DNA of 64,000 bases from Mucilaginibacter terrenus (GCF_003432065.1 NZ_QWDE01000001.1:620001-684000); one strand, 5' to 3'; positions 1 through 12,368 are shown, numbered from the stretch's first letter. Notes: generated by a model not told the origin, from the letters alone. A program made the numbers and translations.

Positions 1-765
1 CGTACCGCTATGAACCGTGGCGCCTTTGATTTTGTATGTAAGCCGGTAGATTTTGATGATCTTGATCTTACAATGCAAAAGACTATCGAGCACGTAAAGC
101 AGCTTCAGGAAACCATAAAGGCCATCAAAGAGAATAACATTCTCAAGATGTACGTGGATGAGAACGTGCTCAACTTTATGACTCATAAAGAGTTTGAAAA
201 CAGTTTATTAAAGAACGAAGTAATAGACGCTACGGTTATGTTTGTAGATGTTTGCGGCTTTACATCTATTACGGAGAATGTACCTGCCAACACGGTAGTT
301 GAGCTCATAAACGGCTTGTTTGACAAAATTGTAAAAGAGGTAGTTGCCCAAGGCGGCCATGTAGATAAATTTATGGGCGATGCAGTGATGGCTGTTTTTC
401 GTGGAGAATACCACCTTGACAGAGCGATAGATGCAGCCCTGGCGGCAAGACATCAACTTGCCGGCGTACAAGAGATAACTGCAGGCGAAAAAACCTTCAA
501 ACCCGAAATATCAGTTGGCATTAACTCCGGCGAGATGGTATCAGGAAACATTGGGTCAGCGTCTTTAAAGCGATTGGATTACACCGTCATTGGCGATTCT
601 GTTAACTTGGCGCAACGTTTACAATCTTCAGCAAAGGCAGGACAAATAATTATTTCTGAAGAAACTTATCATAAAGCAAAAGAGTCGTTCCATTGTGAAA
701 AGATAGGAGAGGTAATTCTTAAAAATAAGGCTAAACCTGTTACTATTTATGAAGTGATGGAATAA
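1..765 (+). CDS. Response regulator-adenylate/guanylate cyclase (5' end outside window)
   Basis: The reading frame is open to the window edge. Its first residues (RTAMNRGAFDFVCKPVDF) are the end of a CheY-like receiver, including the conserved Lys-Pro, so the ATG at 10 is internal and the gene begins upstream. A short coiled-coil linker leads to a class III nucleotide cyclase domain from about residue 75. Metal-binding Asp residues appear in FVDVCGF and MGDAVMAVF, Lys in VDKFMGD fits ATP as substrate, and NLAQR carries the transition-state Asn and Arg. It therefore probably makes cAMP in response to a partner histidine kinase that is not visible here. Cyclase identity is firm; adenylate rather than guanylate specificity is inferred from the Lys. 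Confidence 0.9.
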   Translation, partial: RTAMNRGAFDFVCKPVDFDDLDLTMQKTIEHVKQLQETIKAIKENNILKMYVDENVLNFMTHKEFENSLLKNEVIDATVMFVDVCGFTSITENVPANTVVELINGLFDKIVKEVVAQGGHVDKFMGDAVMAVFRGEYHLDRAIDAALAARHQLAGVQEITAGEKTFKPEISVGINSGEMVSGNIGSASLKRLDYTVIGDSVNLAQRLQSSAKAGQIIISEETYHKAKESFHCEKIGEVILKNKAKPVTIYEVME

Positions 766-2094: not shown

Positions 2095-3489
2095 ATGAGT
2101 AAAGTATTTACCATTGCAGAAGGATTAGAAAATTTAGGCGCTTTGCGTACCGGCGGGCAAGGCTCGGTATATAAAGGAAAGCGGACAGGTACCATCTATT
2201 CCGCCGTAAAACTCATACCGACACCAATCCTTAACGAAAGCGGCGATGATAAAAATTACCGAAACTTCTTAAATGAAGTAGCTAAACTGCAAAAGGTAAA
2301 CGAAATACCTAATCCGAACATTGTAAAAATACTCAGCTCAGGTGTAACAGATACCGGCTCGTTTCCTTTCATAGAGATGGAATACATTGAGGGGCCTGAT
2401 CTAAGTGAATTGCTGCAGCCGCCGCATGATAAGATATTTACGCTGAAAGAGCTAATTAAAGTTGCTGATCAGCTAGCTTGCGCACTTGCGCACTGCCATA
2501 AGGTTGGGGTAAAGCACGGCGATATCAAGAGCAATAATGTAAAATACAACATCCATACAGGCAATTACGTGTTGCTCGACTTTGGCTTGGCTATCATGAG
2601 CGAAGAACAACGCCGCAGCAGCATACGTCATGCCGGCGCGGTTGAATTTATGGCGCCGGAGCAGCATGAAGGAAAAATGCTGCTGCAGACAGATGTTTAC
2701 AGTTACGGTGTTATCCTTTACGAATTGCTTGCGGGTCAGGTACCTTTCCCACTGTCTGGGAACGGCGATACCGGGCGGAACTCTGTTATGGTGAACCATA
2801 TGGAAACCGATATACCGGATCCGATACGCTCCCGTAAGTTAAATATGCCTGAGGAGTGGGACGAAAAGAAGATCCGACAGGAAATGCAGGTTCCTGCGTG
2901 GTTGCTTAACCTCATCAATAAATGCCTTCAAAAGAATCCCGATGACCGTTTTAAAGATGGTTCTGAACTGCATGATGCAATAGTTGCAGGTAGCTTATCA
3001 TCTACAAACGGGAATGTTGCGGTCGGAGCTGCTACTGCTACAGAGAGCGTTGCAGCGCTCAAAGCAGATAATCAAAAGCTACAGCAACAATTGCTTGAAC
3101 TTCAAAACGCGCAACCCGTAATAGATCAGGAACTGGCAGAGCCCTTGGACAACTCTAAGATGGTTGTTTCTAAACTCGGCTTCAACGCACTGGTGGCATT
3201 GCTGGTGCTGTTTGTACTCTTCTCTGTGTATTCGGTATTCATTAAAAAGGATGCACGACTTCCTAACAACACCACTACTCAAGACTCTGTTCAAACTAAT
3301 TCTGATACCACGTTGATGAATAATCCGCAATACGAAGACTCTGCACGATTGGAGACAGAACGGAAGCGTATTTTAAAATTGCGTCGTGATTCCATCAAGC
3401 ATAGAAGAGATAGTATTATTAAGGCTTCTATAGACAGCGTTGCTGTGGACAGCAGCAGGGCAGATACATCTAACGATTCGCCGTTTTAA
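2095..3489 (+). CDS. Membrane-anchored Ser/Thr protein kinase (copy 1)
   Basis: A 464-residue Hanks-type kinase. Its glycine loop is GGQGSV (20-25), the ATP-binding Lys is K39 in SAVKLI, the catalytic loop HGDIKSNN has D143, the DFG Asp is D162 and APE is at 187-189. The catalytic motif is HGD instead of HRD, so it is a non-RD kinase whose activation may not need activation-loop phosphorylation. A coiled coil (about 325-345) and a single membrane segment (about 360-382) follow, then a short hydrophilic, Ser/Thr-rich tail. No PASTA repeats are present, unlike PknB. It opens a co-directional cluster with FHA, PP2C and FtsW-PBP genes, so cell-wall proteins are likely substrates (inference). Its paralogue closes the cluster at 11001-12368. 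Confidence 0.93.
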   Translation: MSKVFTIAEGLENLGALRTGGQGSVYKGKRTGTIYSAVKLIPTPILNESGDDKNYRNFLNEVAKLQKVNEIPNPNIVKILSSGVTDTGSFPFIEMEYIEGPDLSELLQPPHDKIFTLKELIKVADQLACALAHCHKVGVKHGDIKSNNVKYNIHTGNYVLLDFGLAIMSEEQRRSSIRHAGAVEFMAPEQHEGKMLLQTDVYSYGVILYELLAGQVPFPLSGNGDTGRNSVMVNHMETDIPDPIRSRKLNMPEEWDEKKIRQEMQVPAWLLNLINKCLQKNPDDRFKDGSELHDAIVAGSLSSTNGNVAVGAATATESVAALKADNQKLQQQLLELQNAQPVIDQELAEPLDNSKMVVSKLGFNALVALLVLFVLFSVYSVFIKKDARLPNNTTTQDSVQTNSDTTLMNNPQYEDSARLETERKRILKLRRDSIKHRRDSIIKASIDSVAVDSSRADTSNDSPF

Positions 3490-3575
3490 AAGTTCATATA
3501 CCAACCTGGCACGTGCTAAAAACATCTGCCTTTGTTTAGTGTTCATTATCATATTTTGAAGTTTACGATTTAAAC

Positions 3576-4535
3576 ATGGAAACCAAACCTAGTTTTTGGC
3601 AGCGCATTGGTATACAAGATTGGTTCTTGACCACAGAAAGTACCGGTGTTAACGGTAAAATACCGCCACTCACGCCTGAAAGCGTTTATAGTTATATTGT
3701 AGACCAGTTTCGTGAATCTATTAAGGACCTCTCGTTTGCAGGCCGGGTAGTTTTTTATCACGAATTCATCATCAGTTTTAATGCTGATGATTACCGTGAG
3801 TTTATCGAGAACAAGCAGGGTTTGTTTGGCTTAATAGTACAGGAGACTGTTAAAAAGTTTTATGAAATACTTAAGGAATATCGGCAGGAGGGTAAACGCG
3901 TAGAACCATCCGGATCCAAATGGGTGTTCAGGCTGGTATCGCATCCGGATTATCAACGCGGTGATAAAGGCTTTATCGGGAAGTTACTTCCGGATAACAG
4001 TCAACCCACCAAAAAGGAAGAGAACTTAAGGGTAACCTTTATTCCGCGTCAGACAGGTATTGCGCAGACATTCGATGTGAATCAGGATATTCTTAAAGGC
4101 TTTATCTATTACAGCGAAGGTTACTTTGAAATACCTTACCAGGAAGATCTGGAGTACAGCGAAAAGGAGGCGATTCAAAAGGAAAGCAAGAGCGTTGCCC
4201 GTTTCGAAACCATTATTCCCGATAAGCAGTTTGCCGGTAAAAAGGTAGAGTTTCTAATGAAGGATGACGATGTAATTGTCTCCGGGAACGACGAAGAACG
4301 CGATGAGCCAAATATATTCAAGATACCTTCGGAGTGGGTTAACACGCCGCATTTGCAGGTGCGCTTTAATAAGGCGGATGGTAAATTCTACCTGGCATCA
4401 TATGGCGAAATGACAACGCTCAACGAAATGGCGGTACCTACCAGCGATATTAATGCACCCAAGTGGGTAGAGCTGCCCGTAAATTCGCGTATGTTGTTAA
4501 ACGGTATAGTGGGCCTTAATCTGTTTAAGTCTTAA
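3576..4535 (+). CDS. FhaA-like protein with degenerate FHA-type C-terminus
   Basis: 319 residues, no signal peptide or membrane segment, hence cytoplasmic. Residues about 55-135 (AGRVVFYHEFIISFNADDY..., then an alpha-helical stretch and a beta strand) resemble the N-terminal DUF3662-type domain of actinobacterial FhaA. The last 70 residues (TPHLQVRF...FYLASYG...WVELPVNSRMLLNG) have the strand pattern of an FHA domain but lack the GR and SRxH phosphothreonine-binding residues. It probably acts as a scaffold between kinase, phosphatase and FtsW-PBP. The family assignment rests on pattern resemblance only; position inside the kinase cluster supports it. Confidence 0.6.
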   Translation: METKPSFWQRIGIQDWFLTTESTGVNGKIPPLTPESVYSYIVDQFRESIKDLSFAGRVVFYHEFIISFNADDYREFIENKQGLFGLIVQETVKKFYEILKEYRQEGKRVEPSGSKWVFRLVSHPDYQRGDKGFIGKLLPDNSQPTKKEENLRVTFIPRQTGIAQTFDVNQDILKGFIYYSEGYFEIPYQEDLEYSEKEAIQKESKSVARFETIIPDKQFAGKKVEFLMKDDDVIVSGNDEERDEPNIFKIPSEWVNTPHLQVRFNKADGKFYLASYGEMTTLNEMAVPTSDINAPKWVELPVNSRMLLNGIVGLNLFKS

Positions 4536-4539
4536 GCGT

Positions 4540-4638
4540 ATGTCGCAAATATTATCAATAAGCTTGTTAGTAATGGTGGTTTGCCTGTTGGCAACGCACT
4601 TTGTAGATATTAAAAACTCCGGCAAACACAATGGCTGA
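4540..4638 (+). CDS. Small single-span membrane peptide (32 aa)
   Basis: A 32-codon ORF opens 4 bp after the FhaA-like stop codon and its TGA (4636-4638) overlaps the ATG of the phosphatase gene (4631). The product starts MSQILSISLLVMVVCLLATHF, one continuous hydrophobic helix, followed by a short basic tail (IKNSGKHNG). Exact fit between two genes and overlap with the next start suggest translational coupling. The family is unknown, and without conservation data it could be a chance ORF. Confidence 0.4.
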   Translation: MSQILSISLLVMVVCLLATHFVDIKNSGKHNG

Positions 4639-6100
4639 AAACTTTTTTGGACTAACAGACACCGGTAAGGTGCGCAGCAATAACGAGGATACCTTTATTG
4701 CTACGCGGCTGGACAAAAGCCTTGTACTGGCAAGTGTTATAGACGGTGTTGGGGGGTATAATGGCGGCGAAGTAGCAGCAGCTATTGCACGCGAGCAGAT
4801 ACTGGATCACCTGAGCGAAACCAAAGAGAACTTTGTATTTGCAATGATAGAGGCTATACGCAAAGCGAATAGTGCCATTACTGCTAAAAAACAAGAAGTT
4901 AAAGAGTTGGACAGCATGGCTTGTGTAGCTACTCTGGCTGTTACCGACATCCCTAATAACTTGTTCTACTATGCGCATGTTGGCGATACACGCTTATACC
5001 TGCTGCGCGATGGCTCATTGGTTAAGATATCCAAAGATCATTCTTTCGTAGGCTTTCTTGAAGACTCTGGGCGCATAAGCGAGCGCGAAGCCATGGACCA
5101 CCCTAAACGTAATGAGATCAACAAAGCGCTGGGTTTTTCCAGCCAGATAGATGCTGACGATAGTTTTATTGAAACAGGTCAATCGCCGTTTCTGCCCGGA
5201 GATATGCTGCTGCTGTGCAGCGATGGGCTCACCGATATGGTGGATAAGGGAGAGATCACCAATATTATTACACAGCCAATTCCCTTAGCTGAAAAGGCTG
5301 GTAAGCTTATACAGGCCGCCAATAAAAATGGTGGTCACGATAACATAACTGTAGTGCTGGTGCAGAACGACAAGAAGCCTCAGCCGCAAGCAGCAACAAT
5401 ACCAGTTGTAGAGCTTAAGGAAAATACCGAACCGCCGCCAGAGGTAAAGAAAGAATATCAAAATGTAACCTCGGCGATTAAAGAAAAGCAACAAAAACCA
5501 ATGCCTGAAAAAAAAAGCAATTTGTACGCTGTGATCATCAGCATCTTGTGCCTGTTCTTTATAGGTGCTTCTGTTTATTACTACCTGCAATGGCAAAAGG
5601 AAATTAACAAAAGTGTAACCAAACCGGAGGCTATTGCCGTAACAAAGGAAAAGTCGCCACGCAATTCTGAAGAGATCAAACTGCAAAATGCCATTAACAT
5701 GATGAAGACAGATACGCTTGTATTGTCCGACACGTCGTTCAAACAGCCCTTGATCATCAGCGATACGCTGGATATTAGCCGCGCTAAGTTTTTCATTCGT
5801 GTAAAAGGTAATCTAGCCATACAGGCAGACACTGCTTATAATGCGCCTGCATTTATACTCAAAAGTGGCGTTAGGGCTGCTGGCTTTACCAACCTAAAGT
5901 TAAAGGGTTTTACGGCAGGTATAGCGTCCGGCAATATACCGTTGTACCTGCGTAATGTGGAGTTTAGCGACTGCAAAACACCAGTACAAAAGAATTATGG
6001 ATTACCAAGCGGCAGAGCCGTAACGGAAATATTCCCGGCAGCGGCACTTTATGCCGATTCTGTTAATAAAACTGTTAAGCCCCAAAATGGAAGCAGATAA
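4631..6100 (+). CDS. PP2C-family Ser/Thr phosphatase with membrane anchor
   Basis: 489 residues. The N-terminal 245 residues form a PP2C/Stp-type phosphatase: SNNEDTF, VIDGVGGYNGGE (metal-binding Asp and Gly), AHVGDTRLYLLRDG, LLLCSDGLTDMV and GGHDNITVVLV are all present, so the metal centre looks intact. A Pro/Lys-rich linker leads to a membrane segment at about 297-318, followed by a C-terminal extracytoplasmic domain (about 330-489) with a beta-helix-like sequence that I do not recognise. It should reverse phosphorylation by the two flanking kinases, as PstP does in actinobacteria. Its 3' end overlaps the FtsW-PBP gene by 14 bp, indicating coupled expression. Confidence 0.9.
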   Translation: MAENFFGLTDTGKVRSNNEDTFIATRLDKSLVLASVIDGVGGYNGGEVAAAIAREQILDHLSETKENFVFAMIEAIRKANSAITAKKQEVKELDSMACVATLAVTDIPNNLFYYAHVGDTRLYLLRDGSLVKISKDHSFVGFLEDSGRISEREAMDHPKRNEINKALGFSSQIDADDSFIETGQSPFLPGDMLLLCSDGLTDMVDKGEITNIITQPIPLAEKAGKLIQAANKNGGHDNITVVLVQNDKKPQPQAATIPVVELKENTEPPPEVKKEYQNVTSAIKEKQQKPMPEKKSNLYAVIISILCLFFIGASVYYYLQWQKEINKSVTKPEAIAVTKEKSPRNSEEIKLQNAINMMKTDTLVLSDTSFKQPLIISDTLDISRAKFFIRVKGNLAIQADTAYNAPAFILKSGVRAAGFTNLKLKGFTAGIASGNIPLYLRNVEFSDCKTPVQKNYGLPSGRAVTEIFPAAALYADSVNKTVKPQNGSR

Positions 6101-9100
6101 GGCGCAAAGACCCGGCAGAGGTAAAGAAAGGATTTTCCTCCTGCTCATTACGGTCCTCTTTTCTTTGTTGTTCTACAGGTTGTACGAAGTTGTGCAGCTT
6201 CGCTTTGCTGATGTTGATAAACGCCTGGCGGATGGCACAATGGTGAACCTTAATGACAAAGATCCCGCACAGGGCATACATCAGCTGCTTACCAAGGGGT
6301 ATTACTTTGAAGACAAACGCGATATAGAACTAATTACCAAAACGGTTGGCGATAACATTGGTGTAGGCCAAAAGATTGATAATGTTGGTGAACTAAATAA
6401 GCGTAAGTACTACGTAGTTGCCGATGATGCTTTTGCGAAAGGTGGCGAGTCGTTCAAAAAACGTGTAGAAGCGTCGCGATCTTTACTGGGCTATACCGGT
6501 GCGGACTCGTTGCTTTTTGTGAGTGAAAAACAATCGCCAATGAAACTGCCGCAGGTTACAGATCTGGCTATGGGCAAGTATGGCATCAGCGGCAGCATTT
6601 CACATGACGAAGAGCTGGTGCCGGGTGTATTGGTGAGGCTACAAATGATACTACCGCAAGACAGCCTGTTTAGTGATGAACTCACAGAGGATACAAAGCC
6701 GCGGACAGAACAGGGAGAAGGATTCAAAAAGGTACTTTATCCGGATAGTGCAGGTAAGTTAAAACTTCAGGAGCTTACCGCTTATGCACGCACGGATGGA
6801 TCCGGTAACTATCACTTCAAAGGCTTACCAGATGGTAAAGCATTCAAAATATTGCCTCTACAGCCGGGCTTCCAGTTCGGAACATCACAGGGCACTGAAA
6901 ACCTGGACGAAGATGCTGTATTTAGTTTTCGCCAGGCGCCCCACACCATAAAACTATTTTCTACAAGAGATTTTAATATCCTGAAAAAGGAGAAGTCGTT
7001 GATCATACGCACACCTGCGGAATTCAACCACTGGTTCTGGATCATAGCGGCAACTTTCATCGGTGCTTACCTGTTGATGCACATCATACTCTCGCTGTTC
7101 TTCAGTGATAGCGACCAGTTGATTTTGCCTGTAGTAATGATCCTGACAGGTCTATCTTTCCTGACACTGCTTAGCCTGCAGGATCCTTTACGTGACCGGT
7201 TCCTGGCAAAAGACTCACTGGTGTATTTAGGCATTGGGATGGTAGCATTCCTGGTGATGCTTGTCTTTAAGATGCGCCGCTTCACTGCCGATTCTAATCT
7301 GTACCGTTTGTTAGTTTTTAAAAACAACCAAAAGGCCTCAAACGGCTGGCCGTGGGTAGTGATAGCAGCAGGGTTATTAGCTATGACCATAAAGTTTGGT
7401 ACCGGTCCGGAAGGCAGCGGCGTAAAGGTGAACTTGTTTGGCTTTCAGCCGAGCGAGATTGTTAAATACCTTATCATTCTTTTTCTTGCCGGCTTCTTTG
7501 CAGCTAATGAAAAATTAATAAGCGAATACACCAGTTGGACAAAGCGTTGGTCTTTCTTTGCTTTTGCGCTTATAGCAATACTCGTCACGCTGATGCTATT
7601 TTTACTGCTGGGAGACCTTGGACCGGCCATGGTGGTGTGTTTTACCTTCATTGCCTTATTCTCGTTCTCCCGTGGCGACTTCATGTTTATGGCGATATCA
7701 GTAGTTATATATGTTATCGCCTCCTGGACCTTAAAGAACGTGTGGCTTTCAGCTGCGGTAACTGCCGGTATAGTGGCATTGCTCATGTTCTTCCAGCGTC
7801 GTAAGCTCAGTGAATCTGCCGTTATGGTACTCGTGATCATGGCTGCATTCCTTACCATTGACCAGATCCCGTATTTAGGTAAACTGTTCCCAGGCCCGGT
7901 ACAACGTTTGGTAGATCGCAAGGCCATCTGGATGGATCCATGGAACAATGAAGTTTACGGCGGCGACCAGGTAGCAAATGGCCTTTGGGCAATGTCAAGT
8001 GGTGGCGTATCCGGGCAGGGTGTAGGAGAGGGTTTTGCTAAAACCATCCCCGAAGCTCATACAGATATGATTCTCCCGTCAATGGGTGAAGAATTTGGCT
8101 GGACAGGGATCGTTTGTATTTTCATCCTGTTCCTCCTTTACCTGCACCGGTCAATTATAATAGGTCGGCGAACGGGTACACCGTTCCTGTTTTATTTGTG
8201 TGCGGGTGTAGGTATATCCACATTCGTCCAGTTCCTGCTTATTGCAGGTGGTTCTACCGGTGCATTGCCGCTTTCGGGCGTGTCGCTGCCGTTTCAAAGC
8301 TATGGCGGGTCATCATTGGTGGCCAACTTACTTGCTTCTGGCTTTTTAATGTCGGCATCAAGGGTAAAAGGTACAGCTATACAAATGAAGTACATCTCGG
8401 GCCAGCAGGACAAGAACCTGGTGCCTGCGCTTATAGCAGCGGTAATGGGCGTTGCCTTACTTACAGTGAGTGTTTCCCGTTATTTGTTCAATAATAAAAA
8501 GTGGGTGGTACAGCCTGCGCTAGTTGCAGATAAAGGCGGTGCGCGCATGTTTAGCTATAACCCCCGTATTGCTATATTGATGAACCGGCTGCAAGCCGGC
8601 AACCTTTATGACCGGGATGGGGTATTGCTGGCTACCAGCAAGCCGGACCTGGTGAAAAAGCAGATGGGCAAGCTGGCACAATCCGGAGCGGGTAACTATA
8701 ATATCGACTCAGCTATGCACAAACGGCTCGATCGTTATTATCCGTTTGCGGAGCAGATGTTCTTTTGGGTAGGTGATAACAATACCGGCGTTTTTAACGG
8801 CAGCCCTAACGGATACTTTGCCGAGTACGAACACGCAGCGGAATTAAGGGGATTTAAACTGCCGACCACCAACTTTAATGTTACAGCTAACCGCTACCGG
8901 GAGGACAGGTTCCTGGCGCGTGGTGTAAAAGAGATGACCGTCGTGCGGAAAGATTACAGTGCATTGTCTCCGCTGCTGCTTGCGGGTATAAACAGCACGG
9001 CAGTAGACTCATTCAAGAACCGTAATCGCGATGTCAGGCTTACATTGGATGCAGGTCTGCAAACCAACATTCAGCGTTCAATGGTCACCGATACCTCACT

Positions 9101-10157
9101 GCTTGATAACCGCGTATCAGTAGTGGTAATGGAATCTAACACAGGCGACGTGCTCGCATCATCAGTTTATCCGTTGCCTCCTGTAAGAGATTGGGAAAAG
9201 CTAACAATGAGTAATGCCGACCAGAACCAATTAGCCGGATGGATGACCACAAGCGACCTGGGCTTTACACTGGCAACGCAGCCTGGCTCAACCGCGAAGC
9301 TTGCTACATCCTTAGCATCCTTTAATAAGTTAGGCTTGGCAGCGGCCAATAAAACGTATCCCGTTGCCTCTTATGAACGCATCCGTACCAAAGGGCTGGA
9401 GCCTGATGAAACCGGTATGATAACGCTGGAGCGTGCAGTAGTAAAGTCTAACAACGTATACTTCATAAAACTAGCCAACGATCAGCACTTGCAGGAAGAT
9501 ATGGCTACGGTTTATCTTAAAACCGGCATGTTCCTGCATGGTGTGGGCGGTTACTACTACGGCCGCGAGCAGTTGAACCCTGCACAGGAAGATAAATGGC
9601 GTCAGCTTTGGCGTAAAACGGAATTTAACACCAAGCCAAGATATGACCCTAACAACATCCGGCGTACACGGGCCAAAGGCATATCGGGTATGTCGTGGGG
9701 ACAGGGCGAGTTAATCGCTACTCCCGCGGCCGTGGCACGTATGGCTGCAGGCATAGCAAACAACGGAACTATGCCTAATAACCGTTACGTGCTTAAGTTT
9801 AGTGATTCTGCAACTTCAGTTAAGCCGGGAGTAAAACTGGTAAATGATCCAAAATACGCTCAATTGATGCGTAAGTACATGATAGAGCAAAGCGAGGCCA
9901 AAACATATACCCTCGGGATCCCTGTAGCCGGTAAAACCGGTACACCGGAACGTATCTGGAAAGGGCAGCAGATAAACGATGGCTGGTATGTATTTTTCGC
10001 GCCCAAGCAAAAAGGCCCGGGTTATATTGTAACGTGCGTACGTGTAGAAGCCACAAAGGGCTCGTCAGACGCGGTTAAGCTAGCCGGTAAGCACGTAATA
10101 CCATTTTTGCTCAAAAAGGGCTATATTAAAGGGATTGCACAGCAAACAATTGAATAA
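6087..10157 (+). CDS. FtsW/RodA glycosyltransferase fused to class B penicillin-binding protein
   Basis: A 1356-residue fusion. Order: one N-terminal membrane helix (about 15-33); an unfamiliar domain; a carboxypeptidase-regulatory-like beta domain (about 160-265, with TDGSGNYHFKGLPDG); a SEDS polymerase with about ten helices (about 314-800) containing LLLGDLGPAMV, EAHTDMILPSMGEEFGW (conserved Asp) and LPFQSYGGSS; then a class B PBP (NLYDRDGVLLA onward) with catalytic STAK at Ser1068, SNN at 1121 and KTGT at 1283. Both glycan polymerisation and transpeptidation should reside in one chain. The start at 6087 gives the shorter overlap with the phosphatase gene; an in-frame ATG at 6051 would add 12 residues. 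FtsW or RodA is usually encoded separately from its PBP partner. Confidence 0.93.
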   Translation: MEADKAQRPGRGKERIFLLLITVLFSLLFYRLYEVVQLRFADVDKRLADGTMVNLNDKDPAQGIHQLLTKGYYFEDKRDIELITKTVGDNIGVGQKIDNVGELNKRKYYVVADDAFAKGGESFKKRVEASRSLLGYTGADSLLFVSEKQSPMKLPQVTDLAMGKYGISGSISHDEELVPGVLVRLQMILPQDSLFSDELTEDTKPRTEQGEGFKKVLYPDSAGKLKLQELTAYARTDGSGNYHFKGLPDGKAFKILPLQPGFQFGTSQGTENLDEDAVFSFRQAPHTIKLFSTRDFNILKKEKSLIIRTPAEFNHWFWIIAATFIGAYLLMHIILSLFFSDSDQLILPVVMILTGLSFLTLLSLQDPLRDRFLAKDSLVYLGIGMVAFLVMLVFKMRRFTADSNLYRLLVFKNNQKASNGWPWVVIAAGLLAMTIKFGTGPEGSGVKVNLFGFQPSEIVKYLIILFLAGFFAANEKLISEYTSWTKRWSFFAFALIAILVTLMLFLLLGDLGPAMVVCFTFIALFSFSRGDFMFMAISVVIYVIASWTLKNVWLSAAVTAGIVALLMFFQRRKLSESAVMVLVIMAAFLTIDQIPYLGKLFPGPVQRLVDRKAIWMDPWNNEVYGGDQVANGLWAMSSGGVSGQGVGEGFAKTIPEAHTDMILPSMGEEFGWTGIVCIFILFLLYLHRSIIIGRRTGTPFLFYLCAGVGISTFVQFLLIAGGSTGALPLSGVSLPFQSYGGSSLVANLLASGFLMSASRVKGTAIQMKYISGQQDKNLVPALIAAVMGVALLTVSVSRYLFNNKKWVVQPALVADKGGARMFSYNPRIAILMNRLQAGNLYDRDGVLLATSKPDLVKKQMGKLAQSGAGNYNIDSAMHKRLDRYYPFAEQMFFWVGDNNTGVFNGSPNGYFAEYEHAAELRGFKLPTTNFNVTANRYREDRFLARGVKEMTVVRKDYSALSPLLLAGINSTAVDSFKNRNRDVRLTLDAGLQTNIQRSMVTDTSLLDNRVSVVVMESNTGDVLASSVYPLPPVRDWEKLTMSNADQNQLAGWMTTSDLGFTLATQPGSTAKLATSLASFNKLGLAAANKTYPVASYERIRTKGLEPDETGMITLERAVVKSNNVYFIKLANDQHLQEDMATVYLKTGMFLHGVGGYYYGREQLNPAQEDKWRQLWRKTEFNTKPRYDPNNIRRTRAKGISGMSWGQGELIATPAAVARMAAGIANNGTMPNNRYVLKFSDSATSVKPGVKLVNDPKYAQLMRKYMIEQSEAKTYTLGIPVAGKTGTPERIWKGQQINDGWYVFFAPKQKGPGYIVTCVRVEATKGSSDAVKLAGKHVIPFLLKKGYIKGIAQQTIE

Positions 10158-10212
10158 ACCAACGGGTTAAAAAAAGGTCCGTATACACGTTATATATAAT
10201 ACTTTTAGATAC

Positions 10213-11004
10213 ATGATATTTAATTTGTTCGGTGGAAGCGAAAAGGACAGGCCCGAAGACGTAAAGGGCGTACGCCACACGCTGTTACAGTTTATAAAGC
10301 AGGAACTTCAGAAAGCGGAAGGTGGTGAAGGCTCAAACATTAAAGGCTTAAGCCTTTACATTAACTGTAGTGAGGCCGACCGGCACATGTACGAGGCCGC
10401 GGTTTACGCGGAGACGCCCGATCTTTTTAGGGACGAGATACAAAAGATAGCAGACGACTATGACCTCGGTTTGCCGGAACGCTGGTCGCTGGACATATTT
10501 TTTGATGACGACAAACCCGAAGAAGCAGTACAGGCCCTTAACGTTGATGCCGCGTTTTTTATTAAGACCGGTAAACACTTTATCCAGCAAAAGGCAACAG
10601 GCTATATAAGGGTATTAAATGGCGAGACCGAGCAGGCTGAATACGAGATACAATCCGGCGGCGATAAGGTTAATATAGGCCGCGATAAACGGGCCCAGGC
10701 TGATGATGGATTTTTCCGTACCAACCAAATAGCATTTCCATCAGACAGCGGTAACGCAGCAAACAAATATATAAGCCGCCAGCATGCGCACATCGAATGG
10801 AGTGTGGATACCCAGCGCTTTATGCTGTTTGCCGATGATGGCGGCATTCCTCCAAGGAATAAGATCAAGATACGTGCTGATAAAAGCGATAACGTTATAA
10901 AACTGCATTCTACAACCATCGGTCACCCGCTTGCCGAAGGTGATCAGGTTATACTTGGCGAATCTGCTGTACTGGAGTTCAGCTATCAACCCATGAGTAA
11001 ATGA
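10213..11004 (+). CDS. FHA-domain phosphothreonine-binding protein
   Basis: 263 residues, cytoplasmic. Residues 1-125 are an unfamiliar alpha/beta domain. The C-terminal FHA domain (about 145-258) keeps the phosphothreonine-binding signature: VNIGRDKRA (Gly-Arg), YISRQHAHIEW (Ser-Arg-x-His) and a late strand EGDQVILG. It probably binds a phosphorylated partner in the cluster, such as the kinase juxtamembrane region or the FtsW-PBP protein. Its stop overlaps the start of the second kinase (ATGA), so the two are translationally coupled. It corresponds in position and content to FhaB of the actinobacterial locus; that parallel is inferred. Confidence 0.9.
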   Translation: MIFNLFGGSEKDRPEDVKGVRHTLLQFIKQELQKAEGGEGSNIKGLSLYINCSEADRHMYEAAVYAETPDLFRDEIQKIADDYDLGLPERWSLDIFFDDDKPEEAVQALNVDAAFFIKTGKHFIQQKATGYIRVLNGETEQAEYEIQSGGDKVNIGRDKRAQADDGFFRTNQIAFPSDSGNAANKYISRQHAHIEWSVDTQRFMLFADDGGIPPRNKIKIRADKSDNVIKLHSTTIGHPLAEGDQVILGESAVLEFSYQPMSK

Positions 11005-12368
11005 GCAAGGTTTTTACAATAGCCGAAGGTTTAGAAAATTTGGGAGCACTGCGTACCGGCGGACAAGGTTCGGTATACAAGGGCCGCAGGACAGGTGTTA
11101 TCTATTCAGCTGTTAAAATGATCCCAACCCCGGTTTATTCGGAAAGCGGCGAAGATAAAAACTACCGTAACTTTCAGAACGAGGTAGCCAAGCTGCAGAA
11201 GGTTAACGAAATAACAAATCCAAACGTTGTTAAAATTTTAAGTTTTGGTGTTACCGAAAGTGGATCGTTCCCATTCATAGAAATGGAGTATATAGACGGC
11301 CCCGACCTAAGTGAATTGCTACAGCCACCACATGAGAAGATTTTCATGTTGAAGGAGCTGCTTAAAGTAGCTGATCAGCTTGCCTGCGCGCTTGCCCATT
11401 GCCATAAAGTAGGAGTAAAGCACGGCGATATAAAAAGTAATAACGTTAAGTACAATATAAACACCGGTAACTACGTACTCCTGGATTTTGGCCTAGCCAT
11501 CATGAGTGAGGAACAACGCCGCAGCAGCATTCGCAACGCTGGTGCAGTGGAGTTTATGGCACCTGAACAATCGGACGGTAAAATGCTGATGCAGACTGAT
11601 GTTTACAGCTATGGCGTAATCCTGTATGAGCTGCTTACCGGACAGGTACCTTTTCCCCTGAATACAAGTGGAGACACCGGACGGAACAACGTGATGATGG
11701 GGCACCTGGAAGGCAAGGTTCCTGATCCGCTTCCATTACGTAAAGCAGCACTACCCGGAAATTGGGGAACCGACAAACGTGAGATGGAAATGCAGGTACC
11801 TGCCTGGCTGCTGGCGCTGATTGATAAATGCCTCCAAAAAAAACCTGAGGATCGTTTTCCGGACGGTCAGGCTTTACACGACGCAATTGTTAACGGAACA
11901 TTAGCAACAGCCGGCGAACAGGTGAACATAGGAGCATCTACCTTACTAAGCGAAAACGAAAAACTGCAAACTAAACTACAGGAACGCAGCGATCCGGAGA
12001 AGGTTGGGATCCTCAGGATGGATAAGGGCGTAGTACACATGCAAAAAAGCGTGTTTGCAGGGCTTGTTTTCCTGGCGGCGTTATTTATGGTACTATTTGT
12101 CGTTTCGAAAGCCGGCAACAGCAACTCTGCACAATATGGCGCTGACGGAGCCGGCGTACCGCTTAAACCCTATAAATCCATTTTATTGTTAAAACCTTAT
12201 AACTATGATAGTTTGGTTCATACCCAGCAGTTCGCTCGTATGAAAGCAGATTCGATTGCCAAGTGGCGTGCTGCTGTATCAGCGGAAAGGTATAAATATA
12301 CTCCGCCTGTGATCTCCCAACCGGAAAAACCTAAAAAGAAACGTAAGAAGTTTTTGGGAATATTTTAG
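11001..12368 (+). CDS. Membrane-anchored Ser/Thr protein kinase (copy 2)
   Basis: 455 residues, a close paralogue of the kinase at 2095-3489. The first 28 residues are identical and the kinase domain differs at scattered positions only. GGQGSV, K39, HGD with D143, DFG D162 and APE are all kept. The tails have diverged: this copy has a short linker, a membrane segment at about 355-372, a Pro/Tyr-containing segment and a strongly basic end (KPKKKRKKF). Different tails on nearly identical catalytic domains suggest that the two differ in localisation or input, not in substrate choice. It is the last gene of the cluster. Confidence 0.93.
   Translation: MSKVFTIAEGLENLGALRTGGQGSVYKGRRTGVIYSAVKMIPTPVYSESGEDKNYRNFQNEVAKLQKVNEITNPNVVKILSFGVTESGSFPFIEMEYIDGPDLSELLQPPHEKIFMLKELLKVADQLACALAHCHKVGVKHGDIKSNNVKYNINTGNYVLLDFGLAIMSEEQRRSSIRNAGAVEFMAPEQSDGKMLMQTDVYSYGVILYELLTGQVPFPLNTSGDTGRNNVMMGHLEGKVPDPLPLRKAALPGNWGTDKREMEMQVPAWLLALIDKCLQKKPEDRFPDGQALHDAIVNGTLATAGEQVNIGASTLLSENEKLQTKLQERSDPEKVGILRMDKGVVHMQKSVFAGLVFLAALFMVLFVVSKAGNSNSAQYGADGAGVPLKPYKSILLLKPYNYDSLVHTQQFARMKADSIAKWRAAVSAERYKYTPPVISQPEKPKKKRKKFLGIF

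Follow-up and report, generated by a model that had tools for sequence, protein, structure and literature searches.

Within a 64,000-nucleotide stretch of the Mucilaginibacter terrenus genome (GCF_003432065.1, NZ_QWDE01000001.1:620001-684000; hereafter the window), we examined a run of six plus-strand genes that brings together two Hanks-type kinases, a PP2C-type phosphatase, an FhaA-like protein, a second FHA protein and a SEDS polymerase fused to a class B penicillin-binding protein (PBP). The original prediction had described six genes with short gaps or overlaps, and all six open reading frames (ORFs) were found where it had placed them, with intergenic spacings, in order, of 86 bases, 95 bases, an overlap, 55 bases and -4 bases. 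The features of the locus, in window coordinates, were:

2095-12368, plus strand: six co-directional ORFs (kinase, FhaA-like protein, PP2C, SEDS-PBP fusion, FHA protein, kinase)
2095-3489, plus strand: K1, Hanks-type Ser/Thr kinase (Pfam Pkinase, 1.4e-36; kinase motifs and a transmembrane (TM) segment)
3576-4535, plus strand: FhaA-like protein, 319 residues, soluble (profile chain to FhaA_N/FHA proteins; FHA fold by AlphaFold and Foldseek)
4631-6100, plus strand: PP2C-type phosphatase (Stp1_PP2C_phos, 1.3e-63; catalytic motifs)
6087-10157, plus strand: natural SEDS-class B PBP fusion (longest ORF from 6051; the ATG at 6087 is the likely start and overlaps the PP2C gene)
8049-8066, plus strand: SEDS catalytic motif PEAHTD (HTD invariant in the fusions compared)
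9288-9299, plus strand: transpeptidase SxxK nucleophile motif, STAK (conserved in 16 aligned fusions)
9447-9455, plus strand: transpeptidase SxN motif (conserved in the same 16)
9933-9941, plus strand: transpeptidase KTG motif (K[T/S]G conserved in the same 16)
10213-11004, plus strand: FHA protein (Pfam FHA, 0.003; invariant residues; AlphaFold2 and Foldseek)
11001-12368, plus strand: K2, second Hanks-type kinase (Pfam Pkinase, 2.9e-36)

The catalytic motifs of the operon's enzymes were all intact in the window. The largest gene encodes FTSW_RODA_SPOVE (1.5e-47) and Transpeptidase (6e-26) domains within one protein, laid out as a first TM segment (TM1), a periplasmic domain of ~270 residues that is CarboxypepD_reg-like in relatives (7.7e-12), the SEDS polymerase, a further TM segment and the transpeptidase, and it carries both the catalytic Asp of SEDS proteins and the SxxK, SxN and KTG motifs that mark a SEDS-class B PBP synthase; its closest named match came from M. 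pallidiroseus (78%). Because the host genome keeps separate FtsW and RodA elsewhere, with transpeptidases beside them (FtsW/FtsI and RodA/PBP2), the fusion is accessory to these two pairs, a third synthase. Natural SEDS-PBP fusions have been mentioned before (PMC10449877), with polymerase and transpeptidase in one ORF as in the window, but the present family differs in its TM1 and periplasmic domain, in its fixed FHA and FhaA partners, and in having a member at the related locus L041 in which PP2C and SEDS-PBP form one protein. Two further fusion loci were noted: at G667:C1:3404459-3408495 the fusion seems split into two overlapping frames, one with the N-terminal TM and periplasmic part and one with the SEDS-PBP part, which is either a frameshift or a true two-gene state, and at L042 (G131:C121) a SEDS-PBP fusion of divergent sequence is accompanied by a kinase fragment and DUF4384-like proteins, with no FhaA-like gene on the contig.

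K1 consists of a cytosolic catalytic domain (residues ~18-286), one TM segment (~365-383) and an outer tail of ~80 residues, and K2 of a near-duplicate of that catalytic domain followed by a single TM segment and a tail that are unrelated to those of K1; HGDIKSNN in both marks them as non-RD, as had been predicted. The two genes share ~75% nucleotide identity across their first ~660 columns, after which identity drops towards chance, and in the kinase tree they were sisters (99/95), as were the kinases within L033, while across five other Mucilaginibacter loci K2 formed one clade and K1 separate branches. The kinase domains (window 2095-2755 against 11001-11661) look homogenised, as by gene conversion, with unrelated tails, and L033 likewise. 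The pattern suggests that the catalytic domain has been homogenised repeatedly while the TM segments and outer tails diverged freely, which would give one catalytic output with two inputs. The kinases are a lineage-specific homogenised duplicate pair, not pknA and pknB, the identities proposed for them. Two of the three strong Hanks kinases of the host genome lie in this operon. The PP2C protein has a PstP-like layout (cytosolic catalytic domain, residues 9-245; one TM segment, ~298-316; outer domain of ~170 residues), contains the RxxNED, DGxGG, GDTR, SDGLTD and DN motifs, and matched PP2C_2 in Pfam (8e-15) and Tsukamurella PstP by profile (1e-50).

The FhaA-like protein comprises an N-terminal FhaA_N-type domain (residues ~30-125) and a degenerate FHA fold (~208-318), with no TM segment. 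Its name was reached through relatives only: the full-length window protein was homologous to its counterparts in L035 and L036 (E 2.6e-26), and those to the proteins of L037-L040 (1.5e-12), among which L037 lay above the Pfam cut-offs (FhaA_N, 27.4 against 25 bits; FHA, 3.6e-12). A PDB sequence search with the L037 protein did not place the FhaA N-terminal domain structure among the matches listed. In the AlphaFold model (mean pLDDT 67.5) the middle was poor and the N-terminus moderate, and the FHA part alone was used; this C-terminal half modelled as an FHA fold, with Foldseek matches that include the FHA domains of MDC1 and GarA, and its profile matched that of the downstream FHA protein (E 1.4e-8). 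For the N-terminal domains of the two proteins, hhalign found no homology despite similar predicted topologies, and a shared FhaA_N identity is not claimed. The Arg of the G-R motif and the S-R pair are intact in the L037-L040 proteins; in the window lineage the Arg is lost and S-R has become N-T/S/A, with the His and Asn kept. Because of these replacements, the protein is best described, from its residues, as FhaA-like by descent and probably without canonical phosphothreonine binding in this lineage. The label first given to it holds, with the qualification that its FHA domain is degenerate. This loss agrees with transposon data from C. diphtheriae, in which FhaA has an essential FhaA_N (DUF3662) domain and a dispensable FHA domain (PMC10166564).

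The downstream FHA protein, also free of TM segments, joins an N-terminal alpha/beta domain to a C-terminal FHA domain with an intact G-R...S-R-x-H signature. Its Pfam score was just under the cut-off, with orthologues scoring up to 2.5e-8; G156, R157, S188, R189 and H191 were invariant in all 16 aligned sequences, and the AlphaFold2 model (pLDDT 84) found FHA matches in Foldseek. A PF00498 profile search of the host genome gave no match, because its FHA domains are divergent. Since the FhaA-like protein has lost its binding residues, canonical FHA control could run only through this second protein, which can be the sole canonical phospho-reader of the cluster; the control through FHA binding that had been suggested is thereby narrowed to one of its two candidates. 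The equation of this protein with fhaB does not stand, as it has no TM segment, carries an extra N-terminal domain, bears an HEPN_Swt1 (Swt1-like HEPN) domain in its L038 and L041 orthologues, and is encoded after the PBP rather than as a short FHA protein adjoining fhaA.

In one sample of 297 genomes of the phylum, separate searches for the fusion, the FhaA-like profile and the FHA-protein profile all marked the same 12 genomes, from 7 of 140 genera, an agreement with a chance of ~1e-21 if genomes are independent and ~6e-12 at genus level, both of which kinship makes optimistic. By Pfam, FhaA_N was found in five of the 297, all of which carry the fusion. Of 150 genomes of the genus, 100 encoded the FhaA-like protein and 102 the fusion; the pair with the fusion alone, G704 and G711, are 63-65% complete, and among good-quality genomes each of the two genes occurred in 83 of 118. 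The class sample yielded 11 of 395 genomes, one of which (G378) matched weakly and in part and lacks the module, and the module was not found in the other genera of the family that were sampled. The order FhaA-like, PP2C, (kinases), fusion, FHA, (kinases) was kept across ~35-86% identity, in line with the co-conservation and co-localisation across Bacteroidota on which the original prediction was to be checked. The PP2C-SEDS-PBP protein of L041 and an FHA domain fused to a kinase in L036 tie the parts of the module together. One copy lies on a 137-kb plasmid of Spirosoma oryzicola; a plasmid search with the L037 FhaA-like protein and a search of viral contigs gave no match.

Several observations concern the surroundings of the module. 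A run of signalling ORFs adjoins it on the left (window 1-765 to about -4212; G000:C1:615789-620765), two of them large, one small and one a response-regulator-like adenylate cyclase, and the same run adjoins it in L047, L090 and L091 despite a differing right flank. A single conserved insertion site was rejected: the right MFS flank is distant from the module in relatives, and the left signalling genes stay adjacent in some. A LysM/SLT lytic transglycosylase gene lies directly upstream in L038 (3072-5339) and L041 (3949-6150), both from high-G+C genomes. At L077 (466-9323; G131:C44) we found a paralogous FHA/FhaA-like/PP2C set with no SEDS-PBP on the contig, flanked on both sides by genes that we read as caspase-like.

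The resemblance to Actinobacteria lies in both gene order and phylogeny. The Tsukamurella cluster (L123) reads fhaA, fhaB, pstP, rodA, pbpA, pknA, pknB, as does that of Nonomuraea (L124), and this cluster, also known from M. tuberculosis, shares with the window its gene types, the core order fhaA-pstP-rodA-pbpA followed by a kinase, and the grouping of its SEDS protein. PP2C, SEDS, class B PBP and Hanks kinase are linked in the window and in most relatives, and an FhaA with both FhaA_N and FHA domains is reached by the homology chain through L037. In the SEDS tree, for which actinobacterial FtsW, Bacteroidota RodA and FtsW, and others served as controls, the fusions joined four actinobacterial RodA-type proteins at 100/100, and the FtsW controls fell outside that group. 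Because the fusion's SEDS domain falls with actinobacterial RodA, apart from Bacteroidota RodA and FtsW, shared ancestry with the actinobacterial cluster is favoured over chance on this sampling of few outside phyla, and may reflect either transfer from Actinobacteria or an ancient module that was lost repeatedly. The description of an actinobacterial-style module in a Bacteroidota genome is therefore borne out, whereas the claim that the set equals pknA/pknB through fhaB was too strong: in the window, SEDS and PBP are fused behind a new periplasmic N-terminal domain, the kinases are duplicated and HGD-type, the FHA domain of FhaA is degenerate, the FHA protein is not FhaB-like, and the synthase is an accessory one in a Gram-negative host rather than the only RodA. 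Wall synthesis and division in mycobacteria are controlled from the pstP locus, which also includes rodA, pbpA, kinases and fhaA/fhaB; in actinobacteria these genes regulate both growth and division, and the linkage of PstP, RodA, PbpA and kinases is regarded as a feature of Actinobacteria that is partly shared with Firmicutes (PMC6554272). The PASTA-kinase/Stp systems of Bacillota likewise link a kinase and a PP2C to cell-wall synthesis, but in the window a SEDS-PBP and FHA scaffolds share the operon.

The gene set, its order, the intact motifs, the co-occurrence and the homology argue that the operon is probably the Bacteroidota counterpart of the actinobacterial Fha-PstP-RodA-PbpA-Pkn module, acting as an accessory peptidoglycan synthase gated by kinases. 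The fused polymerase and transpeptidase would make and cross-link glycan beside the housekeeping FtsW/FtsI and RodA/PBP2 pairs. The two transmembrane kinases, with their divergent outer tails, and the transmembrane PP2C would set the phosphorylation of cluster proteins, the presumed substrates, in answer to a putative envelope signal. As the phosphothreonine reader, the FHA protein would recruit or switch the synthase jointly with the FhaA-like scaffold, itself without canonical phosphate binding; from these parts we infer phosphorylation control of wall synthesis, its direction and its physiological role. We found no description of such a module in Bacteroidota in the open-access literature.

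Several results weigh against this interpretation. The window FhaA-like protein on its own had no Pfam or NCBIfam match, so that FhaA_N was not directly detectable, and neither database revealed a PASTA domain in either kinase; this absence, already noted in the original prediction, sets the kinases apart from PknB of Actinobacteria and from the PASTA kinases of Bacillota. The SEDS tree contains few outside lineages and long branches, and in the transpeptidase tree PbpA was the nearest neighbour of the fusion with weak support (85/68). In L037, L039 and L040, all from one distant genus, neither a kinase nor a PP2C adjoins the FhaA-like/fusion/FHA core, and in L038 a PP2C is present without a neighbouring kinase; because these cores lack adjoining kinases, control by phosphorylation may be unnecessary or may act in trans.

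The chief competitor concerns purpose rather than anatomy, namely that the module is a stress, developmental or conflict device whose kinases induce or switch the synthase upon envelope attack or a programmed response, for example in spot repair or a resting-cell wall, and not in ordinary growth. An accessory distribution with a plasmid copy, the Swt1-like HEPN domains at L038 and L041, the L077 set between caspase-like genes and the likeness of the kinases to PADLOC defence kinases (mad6, 1.7e-46; PD-T4-6) would all suit it. However, any Hanks kinase or PP2C would be expected to give such matches, the fusion, FhaA-like and FHA proteins match nothing in PADLOC, and the window cluster contains no effector or toxin. 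We regard this purpose as unlikely, if worth keeping in mind. An anti-phage defence system was rejected as the primary reading, PADLOC matches being limited to the kinases and, weakly, the PP2C. Kinase, PP2C and FHA sets are common across bacteria, and Bacteroidota representatives could have come together separately around a SEDS-PBP pair that had duplicated, with a likeness to Actinobacteria that is functional only; the weak placement of the PBP domain and the architectural differences from FhaB and PknA/PknB fit such convergence. We consider it improbable, given that FhaA_N in the phylum sample was confined to fusion carriers, that the fhaA-pstP-rodA-pbpA order is the same and that the SEDS tree unites the fusions with the RodA of the actinobacterial cluster to the exclusion of actinobacterial FtsW. 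Least credible is a constitutive spare synthase with hitch-hiking, non-regulating neighbours, which the cores of L037, L039 and L040, without adjacent kinases, would allow; the PP2C and FHA-kinase fusions and the strict association of the SEDS-PBP fusion with FHA and FhaA-like proteins speak against it.

On the preferred reading of an accessory, kinase-gated synthase, phosphorylation control of wall synthesis of this kind may reach well beyond Gram-positives. More tentatively, and short of a view that we would favour, the module could be a mobile, actinobacterial-type, phospho-regulated third SEDS-PBP machine of Gram-negatives, in which FhaA serves as a phosphate-independent scaffold and the second FHA protein as the reader, the core role of FhaA then lying elsewhere than in phosphothreonine binding. 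The natural loss of phospho-binding residues in the window FhaA is a ready-made experiment on FhaA function. Because the host retains FtsW/FtsI and RodA/PBP2, the fused synthase of this homologous, transferable module should in principle be non-essential, and it would provide a covalently tethered enzyme, in Gram-negative Bacteroidota, for studying how SEDS-PBP activity responds to FHA proteins and kinases.

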